From contig CANQJT010000001.1 in assembly GCA_947624325.1 (NCBI GenBank), positions 186,001 to 250,000 on the forward strand: DNA of 64,000 nucleotides, read 5' to 3'. Position numbers and translations under genes: made by a program. Shown in pieces: positions 3,869-34,001 of this stretch. The stretch is from Candidatus Gastranaerophilales bacterium. GTDB lineage: Bacteria; Cyanobacteriota; Vampirovibrionia; Gastranaerophilales; Gastranaerophilaceae. The notes below the pieces were generated by a model that made no database searches, had not been told where the DNA came from, and saw only the letters and a program-made list of their open reading frames with translations. Position 1 is the stretch's first letter. Every line of letters starts with the position of its first letter.

Positions 3869-4668
3869 TGAAGGTAGTTATCCTTGCAGGCGGTTTGGGG
3901 ACAAGATTATCCGAAGAAACTAAGTTAATTCCAAAACCAATGGTTCCTATAGGCGGTAAACCCATACTGTGGCATATAATGAAATATTACTCCTGTTGGA
4001 ATTTTAATGAATTTATAATATTAACAGGGTATAAATCCCATATAATAAAAGATTACTTTGTTCACTACTATCAGCAATATTCAGATATTACCGTTGATTT
4101 GAGTACAAATACACTGGAAATTCACAGAATACAAACAGAACCCTGGAAAGTTACAATGTTATACACAGGGCAAAAAACAATGACAGGTTCAAGAATTAAA
4201 AAAGCTCAAAATTATATCGGAAACGAACCGTTTTTATTAACATACGGGGACGGATTGAGCGATGTTAATTTAGATAAACTGATTAAATGCCACAAACAAA
4301 GCGGAAAATATTTGACATTAACGGCAGTAAGACCCGAAGGAAAATTCGGCGCATTGGACATTGCTCCCGACGGCGGAATAAACAATTTCGAAGAAAAACC
4401 AAAAGGTGACGGTTCCTGGATAAACGGAGGTTTTATGGTGTGTGAACCTCAAATTTTTGATTTTATTGAAGCGGATAGAGATGATATTATATTTGAACGT
4501 ACAACTTTAAAACAGCTGGCTTTAGCTCATCAGTTAAATTCATATAAGCACGATGGTTTTTGGTACCCTATGGATACGTTGAAAGGGAAAATTGACCTGA
4601 CTCAAATGTGGGAAAGCGAAAAAGCGCCGTGGGCAATATGGCTTAAAAAGGAGCAAGAACTTGTATAA
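3868..4668 (+). CDS. rfbF: Glucose-1-phosphate cytidylyltransferase
   Basis: Makes CDP-glucose from CTP and glucose-1-phosphate, the first committed step to CDP-3,6-dideoxyhexoses. The N-terminal nucleotide-binding signature AGGLGTRLSEET plus PKPMVPIGGKPILWHI is characteristic of RfbF. Other family blocks are YGDGLSDVNL and NGGFMV. At 266 residues it is full length for the family. Start overlaps the preceding stop by one base, and its end overlaps the RfbG start by eight bases, so the block is one operon in RfbF-RfbG order, as in Salmonella and Yersinia O-antigen loci. Confidence 0.93.
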   Translation: MKVVILAGGLGTRLSEETKLIPKPMVPIGGKPILWHIMKYYSCWNFNEFIILTGYKSHIIKDYFVHYYQQYSDITVDLSTNTLEIHRIQTEPWKVTMLYTGQKTMTGSRIKKAQNYIGNEPFLLTYGDGLSDVNLDKLIKCHKQSGKYLTLTAVRPEGKFGALDIAPDGGINNFEEKPKGDGSWINGGFMVCEPQIFDFIEADRDDIIFERTTLKQLALAHQLNSYKHDGFWYPMDTLKGKIDLTQMWESEKAPWAIWLKKEQELV

Positions 4669-5744
4669 TGATGTTTACAGAGAAAAAAAGGTTTTTTTAA
4701 CAGGTCATACGGGGTTCAAAGGTAGCTGGCTTTCTTTATGGCTTACAAAACTGGGCGCTAAAGTTTGCGGATACTCTTTAGAACCGAATACTAATCCTTC
4801 TATGTTTGAAGAGTTAAATATAAAAGACAAAATATATAAATCAATATATGGTGATATAATAAATGCCAATAAACTTGAAGAAGAAATGTTAAATTTCCAA
4901 CCCGATATTGTATTTCATCTTGCAGCACAACCCTTGGTCAGATTATCATATTATGAGCCTGTTTTAACCTACGAAACAAATGTAATCGGGACTTTGAATG
5001 TGCTTGAAGCTGCAAGAAAATGCGAAAGTGTAAAAGCATTTGTTAATGTTACTACTGATAAGTGTTATGAAAATAAAGAAGTAAACAGAGGATACAAAGA
5101 AGATGAACCTATGGGAGGATACGATATGTACTCCTCATCTAAAGGGTGCGTTGAAATAATGTCCTCCTCGTACAGACGTTCGTTTTTACAAACAATAGGT
5201 GCGATGGCTATGGCAACTGCTCGTGCCGGTAATGTAATCGGGGGGGGGGGATTTCGCTTGTGACAGATTAGTCCCTGATTGTATTAGATATATTAATGCC
5301 GGTCAAAAAATTGAAATCAGAAATCCTCAAGCAATAAGACCATGGCAATTTGTATTAGAACCATTGTCGGGTTATTTACTTTTAGGACAAAAATTACTGG
5401 AGGAAGGCAATAAAATTGCTCAAGGTTTCAATTTCGGACCTGATGAAGAAAGTATTTTAACTGTTGCACAAGTTGCTCAAGCAGTAGTTGAAAAATACGG
5501 TAAGGGAAAAATTGAAGTTCACAAAAAAGACAATTTACATGAAGCTAATTTATTAATGTTAAATATAGAAAAAGCACAAAAAGTATTAGGCTGGACACCT
5601 TCTTACAGTGCAGATAGGGCAATAGAAGAAACCGTTTCGTGGTATAAGTATTTTTATTTAAAAAATACGGATATGTATGAATATACCTTAAATCAGATAA
5701 AAGAATTTGAACGGGCAATAAATCGGGAGGCAGCTTTAAAATAG
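4661..5744 (+). CDS. rfbG: CDP-glucose 4,6-dehydratase, frameshifted OFF at an 11-G tract
   Basis: Rossmann SDR that converts CDP-glucose to CDP-4-keto-6-deoxyglucose. It starts at a TTG (4661) with AAGGAG seven bases upstream. The NAD site is TGHTGFKGSW; the catalytic YxxxK is YSSSK with TTDKCYEN before it. At residue ~194 the conserved NVIGGGD loop is encoded by eleven G (5240-5250), which shifts the frame into TGA at 5261-5263. With ten G the reading is NVIGGGDFACDRLVPDC, exactly the family sequence, followed by an intact C-terminus to 5744 (360 residues). The allele here is therefore OFF, which would block the whole CDP-dideoxyhexose branch. Confidence 0.92.
5240..5250. repeat. G11 homopolymer inside rfbG
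   Basis: Eleven consecutive G encode the Gly-rich loop of RfbG. Length 10 gives the conserved full-length enzyme; length 11, seen here, truncates it after about 200 residues. Confidence 0.95.
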
Positions 5745-8163: not shown

Positions 8164-9519
8164 ATGAAAGAAAAGTTATTAAGAAATCTTGTAAAAAAGG
8201 CAGCTAAAGTTTATTACGATAATATTTATGCAAAGAAAAAAGAACTGAAATATCTGCCGCCGTCAGGCAAATTACTTGGCAGTGAGGAATTATTAAATAT
8301 GATAGATGCCTCGCTTGATATGTGGCTTACTACAGGAAGATTTAATAACGAATTTGAAGAAGAATTTGCAAAATATTTGGGTGTAAAACATTGTTTAACC
8401 GTAAATTCAGGCTCCAGCGCAAATTTAGTTGCACTTTCGGCTTTAACTTCTTATAAACTGGGAGACAGACAAGTTAAAAAAGGCGATGAAGTTATTTCCG
8501 TTGCCGCAGGTTTTCCGACAACAATTAATCCTATTATAATGCTCGGGCTTGTTCCTGTTTTTGTTGATTGTGAAATCGGAACATGTAATATTGACGTAAG
8601 CCATTTGGAAAAATATATTACCCCTAAAACAAAAGTCATAATGCTGGCTCATACTATGGGTAATGTTTATAATTTGGAAAAAATACAAGAGCTCTGTAAA
8701 AAATATAATTTGTGGCTAATAGAAGATAATTGCGACGCATTAGGCGCAAGATATAAAAGCAAATTAACGGGAACAATAGGAGATATTGGTACTTTCAGTT
8801 TTTATCCGGCTCATTTTATAACAATGGGCGAAGGCGGTGCGGTTGTTACCAATGACCCCTTACTTAATAAGATTATGAAATCATTTAGAGATTGGGGCAG
8901 AGATTGCTGGTGCGAACCCGGGCATGATAATACTTGTAATTGCAGATTTGAACAACAATTCGGTAAATTGCCTTTCGGTTATGACCATAAATATGTTTAT
9001 TCTCATTTGGGATATAATCTTAAAATTACCGATTGGCAAGCTGCTATAGGTCTTGCTCAATTGAAGAAAGCTAACTCTTTTATTCAAAAACGCAGAGAAA
9101 ATTTCAACTATTTATATCAAAAATTATCTGACTTAACAGATTATTTGATTTTACCTGAAATTGATAAAAATGCTCAACCGTCATGGTTCGGTTTCTTAAT
9201 TACTTTAAAAGAAAATTGCAGTTTTACTAAGCAAAATATGGTTGAATACCTTGAAAAAAACGGGATAGGAACAAGACAACTTTTTGCGGGTAATATTTTA
9301 AGACAACCTTCTTTTGTAGAAAATAAAATTTCTCTTAGAATTAATGATTCTGAATTGCTGCAATCAAATGAATTAACTGAAGAACATTATAAAATGCTTC
9401 CAAATACGGATTATATAATGAATCATACATTCTGGGTAGGAATATTTCCTGCACTTACTTCAAAAGATTTGGATAAAACTTCTGAGGTTATTCATGAATT
9501 TGTAAAATCAAATGTTTAA
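8164..9519 (+). CDS. rfbH: CDP-4-dehydro-6-deoxyglucose 3-dehydrase (E1)
   Basis: PMP-dependent, iron-sulfur dehydrase that removes the 3-hydroxyl of CDP-4-keto-6-deoxyglucose. It belongs to the DegT/AHBA fold, but the PLP lysine is replaced by histidine in FSFYPAHFITMGEGGA, the hallmark of RfbH. The cysteine cluster GRDCWCEPGHDNTCNC provides the [2Fe-2S] ligands. At 451 residues it is the usual size. It follows the dehydrogenase by 16 bases. The partner reductase (E3, DdhD-like) is not in this window. The enzyme depends on RfbG product, which the current poly-G allele would not supply. Confidence 0.92.
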   Translation: MKEKLLRNLVKKAAKVYYDNIYAKKKELKYLPPSGKLLGSEELLNMIDASLDMWLTTGRFNNEFEEEFAKYLGVKHCLTVNSGSSANLVALSALTSYKLGDRQVKKGDEVISVAAGFPTTINPIIMLGLVPVFVDCEIGTCNIDVSHLEKYITPKTKVIMLAHTMGNVYNLEKIQELCKKYNLWLIEDNCDALGARYKSKLTGTIGDIGTFSFYPAHFITMGEGGAVVTNDPLLNKIMKSFRDWGRDCWCEPGHDNTCNCRFEQQFGKLPFGYDHKYVYSHLGYNLKITDWQAAIGLAQLKKANSFIQKRRENFNYLYQKLSDLTDYLILPEIDKNAQPSWFGFLITLKENCSFTKQNMVEYLEKNGIGTRQLFAGNILRQPSFVENKISLRINDSELLQSNELTEEHYKMLPNTDYIMNHTFWVGIFPALTSKDLDKTSEVIHEFVKSNV

Positions 9520-9543: not shown

Positions 9544-10569
9544 TTATTTATAACCTTCTATCATTCTTCTAAAACCTTCCTTAATATCAACAGTTTGTCT
9601 CCAGCCCAGAGATTTAAGTTTTGAAGTGTCAAAATTTGCTCTTGATGAGGGACTTTTAATATATCCTTTTTGAAAAACATCTTTCTTAAATTTAATTTTT
9701 AATTTTTTATCAGGATAAAGAGATATTAAGCATTCTGCTAATTCTAAAATACTTGTTTCTTTCTCGGATGCTATATTATAAGCATTTTTATCCTCTCCGA
9801 AAAACAGAACATAAAACAAACCTATAATCATATCTGTAATATAACAAAAGCTTCTTTTGGCACTTCCGTCAGAATTTAGAGAAATATCTTCATTATTTAT
9901 AATATTTTTTACAAAATCGCCAAAAACTCTTCCGTCATCAAGTTGAACACCAAACCCATATGTGTGAGAAAGTCTGACCATATTAACAGGTATACCGTAT
10001 TGATGAGAATAACACACGCACATATTTTCTCCCATACGTTTACTTTCGGCATAACATGACCTGATATTTACCGGGTCAACATTTCCCGTATATGTTTCTG
10101 TTAAAACAGGTGTTTTATCGTTAACTGTTCCGTATACTTCTCCGGTAGAAATAAATAAAAATTTTTGTATTTTATTTTTAACCGCCAAATCCAACATATT
10201 TGCTGTACCGAGAGTATTAGCTTTCAAAGTTCCGACGGGGTCAATGCCATAGTATTTTGGGCTCGCTTGCGATGCAGCATGAATAATATAATCTATTTTT
10301 TCTTTAATCTCTATTTTTTCTGAAACATCCTGAACTGTTATTTTAAAATTCGGATTATTAAGACAATCTTTAAATTTAATCAAAGCCTTTTCTTTATTTC
10401 TTACTAACCCTATAACTTTTACGGTTTTTAATGCCAGTAAAACCCTTACTATATAAGAAGGAATAAAACCGTTAGCACCTGAAATTAAAATTGTTTTATT
10501 TTCAAGCTTTGAATATGGCAGATTTTGATTAATTATATAGTCTATATCTTGTAATAAAATTTTGTTCAT
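9544..10569 (-). CDS. NAD-dependent epimerase/dehydratase (SDR), left target of invertible switch A
   Basis: A 341-residue extended SDR: NAD site ISGANGFIPSYIV near residue 30, ISTGEVYG, catalytic YAESK. It is related to the SDR at 5821-6897, which shares the ETYxGNV block. The start ATG (10569-10567) lies only a few bases outside the 31-bp inverted-repeat arm, and the ribosome site (AGGA) is inside the arm. There is no room for a fixed promoter, so expression should require the segment to be inverted relative to this sequence. In the present orientation the promoter points away, so it is predicted OFF. Likely a nucleotide-sugar decarboxylase, dehydratase or epimerase. Confidence 0.8.
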   Translation of the reverse strand: MNKILLQDIDYIINQNLPYSKLENKTILISGANGFIPSYIVRVLLALKTVKVIGLVRNKEKALIKFKDCLNNPNFKITVQDVSEKIEIKEKIDYIIHAASQASPKYYGIDPVGTLKANTLGTANMLDLAVKNKIQKFLFISTGEVYGTVNDKTPVLTETYTGNVDPVNIRSCYAESKRMGENMCVCYSHQYGIPVNMVRLSHTYGFGVQLDDGRVFGDFVKNIINNEDISLNSDGSAKRSFCYITDMIIGLFYVLFFGEDKNAYNIASEKETSILELAECLISLYPDKKLKIKFKKDVFQKGYIKSPSSRANFDTSKLKSLGWRQTVDIKEGFRRMIEGYK

Positions 10570-10571
10570 TT

Positions 10572-10602
10572 TTCCTACAACAAAATACTAAATTTGTTAC
10601 AT
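10572..10602 (+). repeat. Left arm of switch A (31-bp perfect inverted repeat)
   Basis: This stretch is the exact reverse complement of 11195-11225. It contains the 22-bp core CAACAAAATACTAAATTTGT plus TA (8-bp arms around TACTAA), which looks like a tyrosine-recombinase crossover site. The outer end supplies the AGGA ribosome site for the leftward gene. Confidence 0.9.
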
Positions 10603-10623
10603 GTGAAAAGAAAGGAAAAACAG

Positions 10624-11166
10624 ATGAGCACAGTAGAACCGGTCAGAAAAATTTCTGACATAAGAAAAATTGAAAAAATTTTAAAACAAGAAAATTTTAG
10701 AAACTTACTTCTTTTTGATATGGGTATTAATTTTGGATTAAGAATATCCGATATGCTTTCTTTAAATGTTGCAGATGTTAAAAATAAAGAATTTGTTCAT
10801 ATAAAAGAACAAAAGACGGGTAAATTTAAATCAATTCCAATTAATAGTAAAATTAAGAGAATGCTTAACGAATACACAATTAATCTCAATCCAAAAGATC
10901 CTCTTTTTTCTTCTGCTTATAACAACAGAATGGATAGGATTTCAGCTTACAGAATTATTAAAAAAGCCTGTGATAAAGCAAATATAGAATCTCATATTGG
11001 TACTCACACAATGAGAAAAACATTTGGTTATCATCATTATCACAAGTATAAAGATATTGCACTTTTACAAAAAATTTTTAACCATTCAAGTCCTAATATA
11101 ACTTTAAAATATATAGGCATAGAGCAAGAAGATATATATAAAAGTTATAGGAATTTTATACTTTAA
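10624..11166 (+). CDS. Small tyrosine recombinase/integrase within the invertible segment
   Basis: A 180-residue XerC/D-like recombinase that contains essentially only the catalytic domain. Catalytic residues are visible: Arg in NFGLRISDMLSL, Lys in KTGKFKSIPI, HxxR in THTMRKTFGYH, the second His in IFNHSS, and Tyr in ITLKYIGI. I chose the ATG at 10624, preceded by AAAGGAAAAACAG; an earlier TTG reading would start inside the repeat arm. It lacks the N-terminal core-binding domain of XerC/D, as small fimbrial-switch recombinases do. It lies wholly between perfect 31-bp inverted repeats, so it probably inverts its own gene and the promoter behind it, analogous in layout to hin but with a different enzyme class. 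Confidence 0.9.
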   Translation: MSTVEPVRKISDIRKIEKILKQENFRNLLLFDMGINFGLRISDMLSLNVADVKNKEFVHIKEQKTGKFKSIPINSKIKRMLNEYTINLNPKDPLFSSAYNNRMDRISAYRIIKKACDKANIESHIGTHTMRKTFGYHHYHKYKDIALLQKIFNHSSPNITLKYIGIEQEDIYKSYRNFIL

Positions 11167-11182
11167 TTTTTAAATTTGATTA

Positions 11183-11191
11183 TGTTATAAT
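11183..11191 (+). promoter_or_regulatory. Outward promoter of switch A (extended -10)
   Basis: TGTTATAAT matches the extended -10 consensus TGnTATAAT. It lies after the recombinase stop and just inside the right repeat arm, with predicted start near 11198, inside the arm. It points at the gene at 11229. No equivalent element faces left at the other end of the segment, so inversion should hand transcription to the 9544-10569 gene. The -35 is weak (TTAATT near 11163). Confidence 0.65.
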
Positions 11192-11194
11192 TTT

Positions 11195-11225
11195 ATGTAA
11201 CAAATTTAGTATTTTGTTGTAGGAA
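11195..11225 (-). repeat. Right arm of switch A (31-bp perfect inverted repeat)
   Basis: Exact reverse complement of 10572-10602. The outer end (AGGAA) is the ribosome site for the ATG at 11229. Both flanking genes therefore keep an identical ribosome site whichever way the segment lies. Confidence 0.9.
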
Positions 11226-11228
11226 TTT

Positions 11229-12104
11229 ATGAAATCTATTCTAATTACAGGTTCCGGCGGATTTATAGGAAAAAATCTTAAAGAATATTTTAAAAATAAA
11301 TACAAGCTTTTAACTCCCAGAAGTTATGAACTTAACTTGTGCAATAAAGATGCTGTATCAAATTTTTTTGCTAATCATAATATTGATTTAATTATTCATT
11401 GCGGTTCCATAGGAGGTTATAGAGATGTAAAAGATAAAACTACAACCCTTCAAGATAATCTTGCTATGGTAAATAATTTATTGGAATATAAATCACCAAA
11501 AACAAGAGTTATATTGTTCGGCTCGGGTGCAATGTACGGGAAATTCCGTAACTTATGCAAAGTAAAAGAAACGGAAATCGGGAATTTTGTTCCTTTAGAT
11601 TTATACGGTCAATCCAAAGTTGAAATATTCAAAATTGCAAAAAAAAGAGATGATGTACTTTGCCTTAATATATTCGGTTGTTACGGATATGGCGAAAAAG
11701 AATCAAGATTTCCGAGTTATGCTATTGACTGTGTACTTAACTGTAAACCGATAGAAATAAACCAAAATGTAGTTTTTGATTATTTATTTATTGAAGACTT
11801 AGAAAAAATTATTGAATATTTTATAGAAAATAAACCCAAAGACAAAATTATTAATGTTACCCCGACTCAAAGTATATCTTTAAAAGAAATAGCTCAAATA
11901 ATAAATACTTTTACAAATTCTCCCGTAGAAATTGTTATAAAAAATCCTGTATTGAACAATGAATATACAGGAGATAATACTCTTTTAAAAGAAAATTATA
12001 AAAATATAATTTTTACTGATTATATTAACGGATTAAAAAAATTGTATGATTATAAGTACAAAAAATCCCGCAATAATAGTGCTGAAATTTTTCTAAACAA
12101 ATAA
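11229..12104 (+). CDS. NAD-dependent epimerase/reductase (SDR), right target of switch A
   Basis: A 291-residue SDR with NAD site ITGSGGFIGKNL, the GSGAMYGK strand and catalytic YGQSK. It resembles short nucleotide-sugar 4-reductases (abequose synthase / GDP-fucose synthase type). That fits a role downstream of RfbF-G-H, reducing a CDP-4-keto-dideoxyhexose or its branched product. The start is three bases outside the inverted-repeat arm, with AGGAA from the arm as ribosome site. The promoter at 11183-11191 faces it, so it is predicted ON in this sequence. It converges with the ThDP gene ending at 12108. The exact substrate is inferred from context only. Confidence 0.78.
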   Translation: MKSILITGSGGFIGKNLKEYFKNKYKLLTPRSYELNLCNKDAVSNFFANHNIDLIIHCGSIGGYRDVKDKTTTLQDNLAMVNNLLEYKSPKTRVILFGSGAMYGKFRNLCKVKETEIGNFVPLDLYGQSKVEIFKIAKKRDDVLCLNIFGCYGYGEKESRFPSYAIDCVLNCKPIEINQNVVFDYLFIEDLEKIIEYFIENKPKDKIINVTPTQSISLKEIAQIINTFTNSPVEIVIKNPVLNNEYTGDNTLLKENYKNIIFTDYINGLKKLYDYKYKKSRNNSAEIFLNK

Positions 12105-14932: not shown

Positions 14933-16657
14933 CTATATTGCAGGTGTCTTTACCCCCCCCGGGATGTTTTTTTGAGCTTTTAATTTAATATTTAATTCGG
15001 ATAAATCTATATGAGGATACGCATTCTCTATAGAAGCTCCAAACTCTAATCTGGGTTCTACTAAAGTATTTTGCTCAAATTTTAAATTAATTAAAACCGG
15101 AGTGTCAGATTTTAGTAAACTAATAATATCTTTAATATTAAATTCTTTTGAATTTATTGTTACTGCTTTAATTCCGTATGCTTGAGCAACTTTTTCAAAA
15201 TCCGGAGCCGAATAGTCAAAAACAGTAGAAGCATAACAATTTTTAAAATACAGCTCTTGAAAAGTTCTTACCATACCAAGACAGTTGTTGTTTAAAACAA
15301 TAATTTTAATAGGGATATTTCGTCTTTTTATAACTTCCAATTCTTGAATGTTCATCTGAAATCCGCCATCGCCTGAAATAGCGATTACGTTATTTGAACA
15401 AAAGGAAGCGCCGATTGCAGCCGGAAGAGAGAAGCCCATTGCTCCCAATCCGCCCGAGGCAAGCATTTTTTGTCCTTTTTTTATATCCGCACATTGAGCG
15501 CACCACATTTGATTTTGTCCGACATCCGTTGTAATTACGGTGTTTTCCTTCAATGTTTTAAAAATTTCTGTCAGTATTAAATATGGCTGTTTATATATTT
15601 TATTTTCATTTGAAAATTTTTGCTTTAATTTTATACATCTTTTTTGCCAAGAATCAATATTTAGAGTTAAATTGGCTTTATATAATACATCTAAAAATAA
15701 ACTTAAATCCGTATTAAGTTTTATTTTTTCAAATTTTGGACAATTTAACTCGGCTTTATCAATATCAACATGAATTATTTTTTTATTTTTTAAAAATTCA
15801 ACTTTTGACCCGGTTTGTCTGATATCAAGCCTCGAACCTAAAACAAGCAATAAATCACACTCATAAAGAGCGAGATTACCATAGCGATTTCCGTAAGTAC
15901 CAATAAAACCCATATTATATTTGTAAGAGTTAACGCAATCTACTCCGTGAAGTGATTCTACAACAGGTATATTGTACTTTTTAAGAACTTTATCCAAAAG
16001 CTGAAAAGATGATGAAAGTTTTATTCCGTTCCCAATAAGAAGCAAAGGTCTTTTAGCTTTTTCAATTAGTGTAAAATCAAAAGAAATCTTTTTTTTAGAT
16101 TCTTTTTTATGTTTATATTCTTTTAATGTAAGAGGATTAATATTCGCTCTTTGAATATCCATAGGAATATCCAGTAAAACAGGCCCTTTTCGACCCGAAT
16201 TTGCTATTGATACAGCTTTTTGAAGTTCATATTTTATATCTTTTGAATTCGTTATTGTTTTCGCATATTTAGTAATTGATTTTACAATATTAACTATATT
16301 TGTTTCTTGAAAAGCATTTTGTCTGATGTTGAAATTATTATATTCATAGGTATTTACCTGCCCTGTTATAAAAAGGACAGGAACTGAATCAAAATAACAA
16401 TCCGCAATCGGGGTTACCAAATTTGTAGCACCCGGACCGCTTGTAGCTATAGCAACACCAATTTTTCCGCTTGTTCTGGCATAACCGTCAGCACTGAAAC
16501 CTGCACCTTGTTCATTTATATTATTAACTAATTCTACTTCTTTATTTTTATATATGCTATCAACAATATGTGAGACCATACCGCCTATATAGCCGAAAAA
16601 TTTATCAGTCCCCGTAATATTATATATTTCTTTAACTAAATAATCCGATAGCTTCAT
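14933..16657 (-). CDS. ThDP-dependent acetolactate-synthase/YerE-like enzyme 2, expression set by switch B
   Basis: A 574-residue ThDP enzyme closer to classical AHAS than its two paralogues: Glu in NNINEQGAGFSADGYAR, FITGQV, ThDP motif ISGDGGFQMN to LNNNCLGMVRTFQELYF. A likely role is transfer of the two-carbon unit of pyruvate to a CDP-4-keto-dideoxyhexose (YerE type). A housekeeping acetolactate synthase is less likely because no small subunit or ilv gene is adjacent. The last residues are encoded by a G8 tract, so tract length changes the C-terminal tail. The gene starts 11 bases outside inverted-repeat arm B and has no fixed promoter of its own; the enclosed promoter currently faces it. 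No ribosome site lies within 15 bases of the ATG. Confidence 0.82.
   Translation of the reverse strand: MKLSDYLVKEIYNITGTDKFFGYIGGMVSHIVDSIYKNKEVELVNNINEQGAGFSADGYARTSGKIGVAIATSGPGATNLVTPIADCYFDSVPVLFITGQVNTYEYNNFNIRQNAFQETNIVNIVKSITKYAKTITNSKDIKYELQKAVSIANSGRKGPVLLDIPMDIQRANINPLTLKEYKHKKESKKKISFDFTLIEKAKRPLLLIGNGIKLSSSFQLLDKVLKKYNIPVVESLHGVDCVNSYKYNMGFIGTYGNRYGNLALYECDLLLVLGSRLDIRQTGSKVEFLKNKKIIHVDIDKAELNCPKFEKIKLNTDLSLFLDVLYKANLTLNIDSWQKRCIKLKQKFSNENKIYKQPYLILTEIFKTLKENTVITTDVGQNQMWCAQCADIKKGQKMLASGGLGAMGFSLPAAIGASFCSNNVIAISGDGGFQMNIQELEVIKRRNIPIKIIVLNNNCLGMVRTFQELYFKNCYASTVFDYSAPDFEKVAQAYGIKAVTINSKEFNIKDIISLLKSDTPVLINLKFEQNTLVEPRLEFGASIENAYPHIDLSELNIKLKAQKNIPGGVKTPAI
14953..14960. repeat. 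C8/G8 homopolymer near the 3' end of ThDP enzyme 2
   Basis: Eight C on the + strand, in codons ~566-568. G8 ends the protein ...PGGVKTPAI; G7 would stop right at the tract; G9 would extend the frame by roughly 55 codons to about 14775. The effect is on the tail only, so a functional switch is less certain than in the other tracts. Confidence 0.8.
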
Positions 16658-16667
16658 TAATTTCGTA

Positions 16668-16691
16668 CAACATTTACTAACAAATGTTGCA
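16668..16691 (+). repeat. Left arm of switch B (inverted repeat, recombinase-like site)
   Basis: Contains CAACATTT-ACTAAC-AAATGTTG (16668-16689), a perfect 8-bp palindrome around a 6-bp core. Positions 16675-16691 are the exact reverse complement of 16785-16801, and the match continues imperfectly to 16808. It resembles the switch A core (8-6-8, core TACTAA). Confidence 0.85.
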
Positions 16692-16706
16692 CACTCCTTA
16701 AATTCA

Positions 16707-16735
16707 AGTATAGCTAAATGTCATTATAATGTCAA
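16707..16735 (-). promoter_or_regulatory. Strong promoter inside invertible segment B, facing ThDP enzyme 2
   Basis: On the minus strand TTGACA (16735-16730), a 17-bp spacer and TATACT (16712-16707) form a near-consensus sigma-70-type promoter, with start predicted near 16700. It sits between the two repeat arms, so inversion would aim it right at 16877. Confidence 0.85.
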
Positions 16736-16784
16736 TTTGAGTAATTCCTTTGAAAAAAAACGGAACAGCCCCTACTTACTTAAA

Positions 16785-16808
16785 TGCAACATTTGTTAGT
16801 ATATGTTA
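16785..16808 (-). repeat. Right arm of switch B
   Basis: CAACATTT-GTTAGT-ATATGTTA (16787-16808): the core GTTAGT is the reverse complement of the left core ACTAAC, so the two sites are in inverted orientation around a 93-bp segment. The outer half-site has two mismatches to the palindrome. Confidence 0.85.
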
Positions 16809-16876: not shown

Positions 16877-17753
16877 GTGAAAAAATTAAAAGCTGGCATA
16901 ATTGGTACAGGGAATATAGGTTGTGATTTATTAGCTAAAATTCAAAAATCAAATGAACTTGAATGCACTTTGTTTATGGGTAGAAATTTAAATTCAAAAG
17001 GAATGGAATTTGCTAACAGACTTGGAGTAAAAATTACCGATAAATCTATAGAGGCATTAATAGATAATCCTAAATTGTGCGATATTGTATTTGATGCAAC
17101 AACAGCAAGTGCACATTATAAACATGCTGAAATTTTAAAGAAACTAAATAAATTCACTATTGATTTAACTCCTTCTTTATTAGGAAAAATGTGCATTCCT
17201 ATTGTAAACGGAATGGAATGCATAAAAGAGACAAACATTAATATGGTAACCTGCGGAGGACAAGCAACAATTCCTATAATTAGTGCAGTTAACAGTATGA
17301 TTCCTGATATTGACTATATAGAAACTGTAACAAGTATATCTGCAGATTCTGCAGGACCAGGAACAAGAGCAAATATTGATGAATTTACGCAAACGACCAA
17401 AGCTTCTATATTAAATTTTTCTAAAACCAAAGAGGCAAAAGCTATAATTATATTAAATCCTGCTTCCCCCCCCCCCATTAATGCATAATACCATATATAT
17501 AAAATCTAAAAATATTGATATAGATAAAATTGAACCTGTAATAAATCAGACAGTTGAAAAAGTTCAAAAATATGTTCCGGGATATAGATTGATAAACAAA
17601 CCTTGTGTAAATAACAATATTTTAATTGTTATGGTTGAAGTTGAGGGCAGTGGTGATTATTTGCCAAAATACAGCGGTAATCTCGATATATTTACATCCT
17701 CTGCGGCAGCAATTGCACAAATGTATGCGCAAGAGGTATTTTATGCAGGATAA
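16877..17753 (+). CDS. Acetaldehyde dehydrogenase (acylating), frameshifted OFF at an 11-C tract
   Basis: MhpF/DmpF-type enzyme interconverting acetyl-CoA and acetaldehyde, normally in a channeling complex with the aldolase encoded next. NAD site IIGTGNIGCDLL; catalytic Cys in NMVTCGGQAT. It starts at GTG 16877 with AAAGG upstream. At codon ~197 the conserved LNPAxPP segment is encoded by eleven C (17466-17476), giving an early stop at 17488. With ten C the frame reads LNPASPPPLMHNTIYIK, the family sequence, and continues to 17753 (291 residues). The current allele is OFF. The stop overlaps the aldolase start by 11 bases. Confidence 0.9.
17466..17476. repeat. C11 homopolymer inside the acetaldehyde dehydrogenase gene
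   Basis: Eleven C; length 10 gives the full-length conserved protein, length 11 truncates it at 17488. Confidence 0.95.
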
Positions 17754-32838: not shown

Positions 32839-32905
32839 TATCTAATAGATATATAACTATAATATGTTTGTTAAATTATATCTAAAAGATTTATAACGAT
32901 AATAT
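32839..32905. promoter_or_regulatory. Two 27-bp direct repeats with palindromic core (likely operators)
   Basis: Copies at 32839-32865 and 32879-32905 share 24 of 27 bases and are exactly 40 bp apart (about four helical turns). The first contains TATCTAATAGATA, a perfect odd palindrome; each ends in a TATAAT-like box. They lie 37 bases upstream of the ATG at 32942. A third, partial copy (TATCTAATAGA) is at 33991 in front of the next gene. Confidence 0.6.
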
Positions 32906-32941: not shown

Positions 32942-33985
32942 ATGAAAAAAATATTATTTAGCATGACGGATGATAATTCAGCCGGATTATATGATGAAGA
33001 AATTAATGACATATATCATTCAAAAACCGGAGCATTGAAGGAAGCCATTGATAAATTTATTATCCCGAGTCAATTATCAAATCTTGTTAAGTTGAAAGAT
33101 GAGATAAATATTTTAGATATCTGTTACGGTATCGGTTATAATTCAAAGGCTGCATTTATATCAAAAGAAAAAGCAAATTTAAATATTGATTGTCTTGATA
33201 TAAATCCTATGTTAATATTTATTTCCCCTTTTATTAAAGATAACATTGATGATTTTGATTTAAAGATATACCTCTTCTCTGAAATATTAAAAAATTGCCG
33301 TGAATCTTCGGAATTTTATGTTAAAAACTTTAGTACAGTTTATTTAAAGGATGTTCAATTTTTTGAGCCTTCTATGATTAATTTTATCAAATTTTTAATT
33401 ACTGAGGGGTATATTTATAGTGGTTCATCTCTAAATCTTTCGTTTTTACATAATATATATTATAAGTATATATCGACTGACATGAAAAATAGTAAAAAAG
33501 CCAATAAATATAGTAATTCTAAAATTAACTTTAAAATAGGCGATGCAAGAAATACCCTTAAGGAACTTGATTCATTATATGATGTTATTTTTCTTGATGC
33601 ATTTTCTCCTCAAAAGGCTCCGGAATTATGGACAATAAATTTTATTAATTTAATAAAAAATAAAATGCATAATAATTCTGTTCTTCTTTCTTATTCAAAA
33701 TCAACTCCATTTAGAAGTGCATTACTTGAGCTTGGTTTTTTTGTCGGCAAAACTCTTATTAATGAAATTGATATGGGTACAGTTGCTTCAATGAATAAAA
33801 ATTATATTTTAAACACATTATCTGATTATGACCTTGCTTTAATTAATACCCGGGCAGGAATATTTTATGAGGATTCCGATTTTACTTTATCTTCAGCAGA
33901 TATTATTAAAAATCGTCTTATTAAAATATCTCGCTCAGATAAAATTTCACATACTTCTTTCTTAAAATCTTCTAAAATATTATAG
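32942..33985 (+). CDS. MnmC/MnmD-like SAM-dependent methyltransferase
   Basis: A 347-residue protein. SAM motif I is ILDICYGIGYNSKAAF; the diagnostic DUF752 block is YDVIFLDAFSPQKAPELWT, near-identical in pattern to the methyltransferase half of MnmC, which methylates 5-aminomethyl-2-thiouridine in the tRNA wobble position. The Rossmann core is interrupted by a ~70-residue insertion (about residues 120-190). The following gene is an FAD oxidoreductase, but not the MnmC oxidase type. A tRNA-modifying role is likely from the family. Confidence 0.78.
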   Translation: MKKILFSMTDDNSAGLYDEEINDIYHSKTGALKEAIDKFIIPSQLSNLVKLKDEINILDICYGIGYNSKAAFISKEKANLNIDCLDINPMLIFISPFIKDNIDDFDLKIYLFSEILKNCRESSEFYVKNFSTVYLKDVQFFEPSMINFIKFLITEGYIYSGSSLNLSFLHNIYYKYISTDMKNSKKANKYSNSKINFKIGDARNTLKELDSLYDVIFLDAFSPQKAPELWTINFINLIKNKMHNNSVLLSYSKSTPFRSALLELGFFVGKTLINEIDMGTVASMNKNYILNTLSDYDLALINTRAGIFYEDSDFTLSSADIIKNRLIKISRSDKISHTSFLKSSKIL

Positions 33986-33990
33986 TTATA

Positions 33991-34001
33991 TATCTAATAG
34001 A
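33991..34001 (+). promoter_or_regulatory. Third copy of the TATCTAATAGA motif
   Basis: TATCTAATAGA lies about 80 bases before the FAD oxidoreductase start and matches the first eleven bases of the repeat at 32839; an AT-rich ATTATATTATAA follows. It suggests shared control of the two genes. Confidence 0.45.

Follow-up and report, generated by a model that had tools for sequence, protein, structure and literature searches.

A putative self-inverting tyrosine-recombinase switch between two SDR genes in a probable surface-sugar cluster of a Gastranaerophilales bacterium

The locus

The stretch of DNA analysed here, the window, comprises 64,000 nucleotides from a Candidatus Gastranaerophilales bacterium, and its coordinates are used throughout. 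It carries a sugar cluster that contains rfbF, rfbG and rfbH together with three acetolactate-synthase-like enzymes. The rfbH gene (8164-9519, forward strand), which codes for CDP-4-keto-6-deoxyglucose 3-dehydrase, scores 682 bits against the model NF011936 (cut-off 423). Because the genes of the RfbFGH pathway are present, the cluster probably makes CDP-3,6-dideoxyhexose-type surface sugars. The rfbG gene (CDP-glucose 4,6-dehydratase, 4661-5744) has its reading frame broken between 5263 and 5364 and so falls into two parts, either through an assembly error or because it is a pseudogene.

Next to rfbH lie two divergent SDR genes, the left one coding for an NAD-dependent epimerase/dehydratase (9544-10569, reverse strand) and the right one for an epimerase/dehydratase (11229-12104, forward strand). 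Between them stands a segment of 654 bp (10572-11225), bounded by a left arm (10572-10602, forward strand) and a right arm (11195-11225, reverse strand) that leave 592 bp between them. The initial annotation of this DNA had described the arms as exact reverse complements, and they are indeed identical as an inverted repeat at 31/31 positions. The longest exact inverted repeat found within 1.5 kb measures 31 in the window versus 13-18 in 20 Markov shuffles, so that this short segment is enclosed by inverted repeats beyond chance. In the 1.98-Mb genome, the arm sequence is confined to the two arms, as judged by a search allowing up to 3 mismatches. Each arm harbours a core (10578-10599 on the left, 11198-11219 on the right); the left core reads CAACAAAA-TACTAA-ATTTGTTA, and the core pattern is YAACA-N12-TGTTR, that is, two inverted half-sites around an asymmetric spacer, TACTAA, within the range of 6-8 bp.

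The arms also reach into the expression signals of the adjoining genes: the ribosome-binding sequence of each SDR gene, TAGGAA, sits in the arm next to that gene. The two SDR genes had previously been placed 3-6 bases outside the arms; that they are divergent and adjoin the arms holds, but the distances are really 2 bases on the left, where the start codon lies at 10569, and 3 bases on the right. It had likewise been stated that only a recombinase gene and an outward extended -10 promoter lie between the arms, and both were found there, the gene at 10624-11166 and the promoter element TGTTATAAT at 11183-11191.

The recombinase and the outward promoter

The gene inside the segment (forward strand) has an intact reading frame from the ATG at 10624 to the stop at 11166 and encodes a tyrosine recombinase of 180 aa that consists of the catalytic domain only. 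This assignment is based on PF00589 (E=1.4e-24; 87.2 bits, above the curated cut-off of 27.1), on phrog_216 (6.9e-56) and on the predicted fold, the AlphaFold2 model (pLDDT 91) resembling the catalytic domains of Xer and lambda-Int. The R-K-H-R-H-Y active site is complete (R40, K64, H128, R131, H154 and Y163), and its residues are kept in at least 141 of 142 relatives. A search for a clear promoter of the recombinase gene that would be usable in both orientations found none; weak -10-like sequences do occur within the sites, but DNA this rich in A+T abounds in them and they have no evidential value.

The outward element TGTTATAAT (forward strand) is a perfect extended -10 in the stretch that runs from the end of the recombinase gene to the right arm. 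The two-hexamer promoter scan does not list it because its -35, TTAATT, is poor (3/6). The predicted transcription start, at ~11198, coincides with the base at which the right core begins. In most of the related loci that hold the enzyme inside the site pair (described below), an outward-facing -10-like element likewise occupies the gap that separates the stop codon of the recombinase gene from the right site; the exact -10 match varies among these loci, and TGTTATAAT itself occurs only in this window and in the locus L167. The promoter is thus a prediction from sequence, in which a perfect extended -10 at a position that recurs in relatives is combined with a weak -35. As the ribosome-binding sequences lie inside the arms and the predicted transcript starts at the core edge, the left and the right SDR would get identical leaders.

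A family of recombinases and sites in Gastranaerophilales

For comparison, one genome per species was used. Relatives of the recombinase (E below 1e-30) occur in 252 of the 383 genomes of the family, representing 34 of 41 genera. Recombinase loci were scanned for inverted pairs of NAACA-N12-TGTTN with identical central 6 bp, with the reversed sequence serving as control: 27 such pairs were found in 144 loci, a sample biased by having been picked from the best matches, versus 0 in the control. When inverted repeats close to the gene were sought without regard to the motif, the counts were 46 versus 0. Judging from these counts, an enzyme family that extends across the lineage uses the arm core YAACA-N12-TGTTR as its recombination site.

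The sites and the enzyme gene are arranged in two layouts. The commoner one has the enzyme gene next to a short promoter inverton, whose site pair follows immediately downstream and encloses 112-380 bp. In the enzyme-inside layout, the sites are separated by 611-624 bp, and this form is found in eight independent loci, namely this window with its orthologue in the genome G028 (counted as one), L051, L055, L096, L097, L107 (decayed), L131 and L167. The neighbouring genes are divergent in 7/8 of these loci, with L131 as the exception, and those of L107 and of L055 form paralogous pairs. A quick tree of 142 recombinase sequences requires three changes to account for the enzyme-inside form, which suggests that it arose repeatedly; the forks of this tree are weak and leave room for a single origin. 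For the two enzyme-inside loci of the genome G125, no orthologue was found within its genus.

The locus L107 is a paralogue within the same genome (G000:C13:700-9400) and consists of a broken recombinase within inverted repeats, flanked by two divergent radical-SAM paralogues that are 51% identical. Of its two site pairs, at locus positions 1173/1303 and 4038/4649, one is recombinase-less and lies ~3 kb from the other. Tandem pairs of recombinase genes, with starts 1.3-1.8 kb apart, were seen in L189 (G178:C19), L191 (G092:C2) and L200 (G204:C5). The loci of G178 and G092 are nearly identical despite belonging to different genera, which suggests a recent transfer.

Inversion in related genomes

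Relatives were compared for a reversed inner segment between collinear flanks. Between L189 and L191, which come from different genera, a 319-bp segment matches at 98.7% when reversed versus 76.3% in the forward direction, next to a flank that is identical at 400/400 positions. A 77-bp stretch of L151 and L179 is identical (77/77) only when reversed, and for L154 versus L171 the reversed alignment is favoured less strongly (80.5% versus 75.7%). Both members of the pairs L054/L095 and L190/L199 have the same orientation. These genome comparisons show that the recombinase family inverts DNA in nature; since they are made between species, they tell that inversion happened and do not give its frequency.

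A further inverton, which has the same site motif and no recombinase, lies 6 kb from the main segment. It is bounded by a left site (CAACATTTACTAACAAATGTTG; 16668-16689, forward strand) and a right site (16787-16808, reverse strand), and its inner 97 bp are 100% forward in G028; in the genome G033, they align at 85.6% reversed versus 68.3% forward, with a left flank that is 96.3% collinear. This satellite is flanked by a divergent pair of operons, made up of acetolactate-synthase-like and related genes, and contains a predicted sigma-70 promoter, TTGACA-17-TATACT (11/12; 16707-16735, reverse strand), aimed at 14933-16657 on the same strand. On its right-hand side, the partner gene of this genome differs from those of G028 and G033 from the site outward. 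The acetaldehyde dehydrogenase frame at 16877-17488 covers residues 1-200 of ~303 in the family model and seems broken near 17488. Elsewhere in the window, a perfect 20-bp inverted repeat (32846-32865 and 33977-33996, ~1.1 kb apart) surrounds a gene of 347 aa; it departs from the site motif and was set aside as a candidate pair of family sites.

The main segment is intact in only one further genome, G028, where it has the same orientation; the locus is 97.4% identical over 3,131 bp. In G033, the recombinase is 94% identical and the right SDR is kept; the left SDR is replaced by another gene and the left site is broken. Sister loci and the satellite inverton are thus represented in both orientations, and the main segment in one, in two genomes. 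With the same orientation in both, we infer the inversion of 10572-11225 by analogy with its relatives, and with it the swap of expression between the two SDR genes.

A switch at the step after RfbH

In genomes that have no switch, a homologue of either SDR may take the position next to rfbH: the right-SDR homologue directly follows rfbH in 5/7 relatives examined (G022, G075, G114, G143 and G119), and the left-SDR homologue does so in 1/5 (G109). Because either type directly follows rfbH in sister genomes, the two SDRs likely represent alternatives for the reaction that follows RfbH, and the switch would probably select the last enzyme of the CDP-3,6-dideoxyhexose pathway. A second copy of the switch upstream of SDR homologues was sought in other genomes, and none was found.

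The segment 10572-11225 is best explained as an autonomous phase-variation switch that chooses, by inverting itself, the SDR used after RfbH; we assign this reading a probability of roughly 0.83. It could operate in the following manner: The recombinase would bind the two arm cores, which are imperfect dyads with half-sites of ~8 bp and the spacer TACTAA of ~6 bp. Strand exchange in the spacer would then turn over the entire segment, the recombinase gene included. In the present orientation, the outward promoter behind the recombinase gene presumably initiates transcripts at the border of the right core, and the right SDR is predicted to be on and the left SDR off. After inversion, the same promoter would drive the left SDR, the leader being equal in both states. 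Since either SDR type can follow rfbH, the switch would most likely exchange the enzyme acting after RfbH in a CDP-3,6-dideoxyhexose pathway and, with it, a sugar of the surface glycan.

The initial annotation had already proposed a self-contained promoter switch operated by a tyrosine recombinase, and the conserved active site, the site motif, the eight enzyme-inside loci and the inversions in sister systems all lend it support. Its comparison to the layout of hin, with a tyrosine enzyme instead, is borne out by the position of the gene 10624-11166 between the arms and by the match to PF00589. The present analysis goes beyond it in recognizing the SDRs as alternative partners of rfbH, in finding the second inverton 6 kb away and in revealing that the family enzyme usually stands beside its inverton.

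A broader reading is put forward tentatively, at somewhat less than even odds. Throughout their lineage, Gastranaerophilales may hold a toolkit of tyrosine recombinases that consist only of the catalytic domain and have one private site each; in this reading, they have repeatedly been rebuilt from the enzyme-beside form into self-inverting cassettes. These cassettes may also drive recombinase-less satellites in the same glycan cluster, such that a single enzyme would coordinate several binary choices: in this cluster, that of the last sugar enzyme (10572-11225) and that within the neighbouring operon pair (16668-16808).

Alternative explanations

The segment might have inverted in the past and now be locked with the right SDR on, with selection keeping that state. 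The common orientation in this genome (G000) and G028 would agree with such a relic, and decay does occur in the family, as illustrated by the broken recombinase of the C13 paralogue and by the left site lost in G033. We nevertheless regard it as unlikely, as the arms still match at 31/31 positions, all catalytic residues are intact, and the left SDR has remained an intact open frame that is 99% identical in G028. Another explanation, which appears very improbable, is that other invertons, 16668-16808 for one, are the main targets of the recombinase, which would act on them in trans, its own flanking sites being incidental. It draws on the satellite 6 kb away, which shares the motif and is reversed in G033, the genome whose recombinase has lost its own left site, and on the C13 locus with its recombinase-less pair ~3 kb away. 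However, the enzyme-inside layout, the matched arms and a promoter in a like position recur in eight independent loci, most of which are without a detectable satellite, and action on the enzyme's own arms and action in trans are not mutually exclusive.

The notion of a small mobile cassette with terminal inverted repeats that landed by chance between two genes is hardly credible. The enzyme does belong to an integrase-type family with phage relatives, and the recombinase of locus L081 adjoins a different left gene; yet the arms are unique in the genome, and a mobile element was rejected on the grounds that no copies of its ends were found elsewhere at up to 3 mismatches. Moreover, the arms serve as ribosome-binding sites of the two adjoining genes, and no relatives were found in viral contigs. 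Every independent enzyme-inside locus also has an arm sequence of its own that is shared by its two arms, a pattern expected of an inverton rather than of an element that spreads.

Relation to known systems

FimB and FimE of E. coli are small (~200 aa) catalytic-domain-only tyrosine invertases that turn a promoter segment, fimS, between short inverted repeats. The present enzyme is like them in size and in the domain it contains, but its scores against their models NF007371 and NF007370, 37.3 and 30.3 bits, are far below the cut-offs of 222 and 221. In the fim system, moreover, the segment that is inverted does not include the recombinase genes, whereas here the gene lies inside. A recombinase within the invertible segment is exemplified by Hin (PMC5903667), a serine recombinase aided by Fis and an enhancer (PMC3798978). 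With Hin, which brings about flagellar phase variation in Salmonella, the present locus has in common that the recombinase gene and an outward promoter are both inside the inverted segment; it differs in that the enzyme is a tyrosine recombinase (PF00589) and that each orientation serves a different SDR gene. In the hsdS inverton of Streptococcus pneumoniae, the gene of the tyrosine recombinase PsrA is located inside the region that PsrA rearranges (PMC12324116, PMC7096588), just as the present gene lies inside the segment that its enzyme would turn over, but PsrA (31.2 kDa) shuffles hsdS coding sequence, whereas the 180-aa enzyme would invert a promoter along with the gene that encodes it. 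Promoter invertons of gut bacteria combine short inverted repeats, an internal promoter, a nearby invertase gene and surface-glycan targets (PMC11892184); their recombinases are near the inverton, in contrast to the enzyme-inside layout.

A search of the literature accessible without subscription found no papers linking Gastranaerophilales with phase variation. If the proposed switch is real, these uncultured, non-photosynthetic gut cyanobacteria gain a phase-variation system that is apparently undescribed in the literature searched. It would be a compact self-inverting tyrosine-recombinase switch, packing the promoter, the enzyme and the two leaders into 654 bp, and it makes a testable claim on how a gut commensal could swap one surface-sugar type for another. 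The family, for its part, offers many pairs of a ~180-residue enzyme and its site, the specificity of which can be compared directly. Small recombinases with similarity to the family at the DNA level are also encoded by phages, namely Streptococcus phage 315.1 (L213, 2600-3175) and Geobacillus phage GR1 (L214, 2620-3165); in phage 315.1, the recombinase gene is located upstream of the terminase genes.
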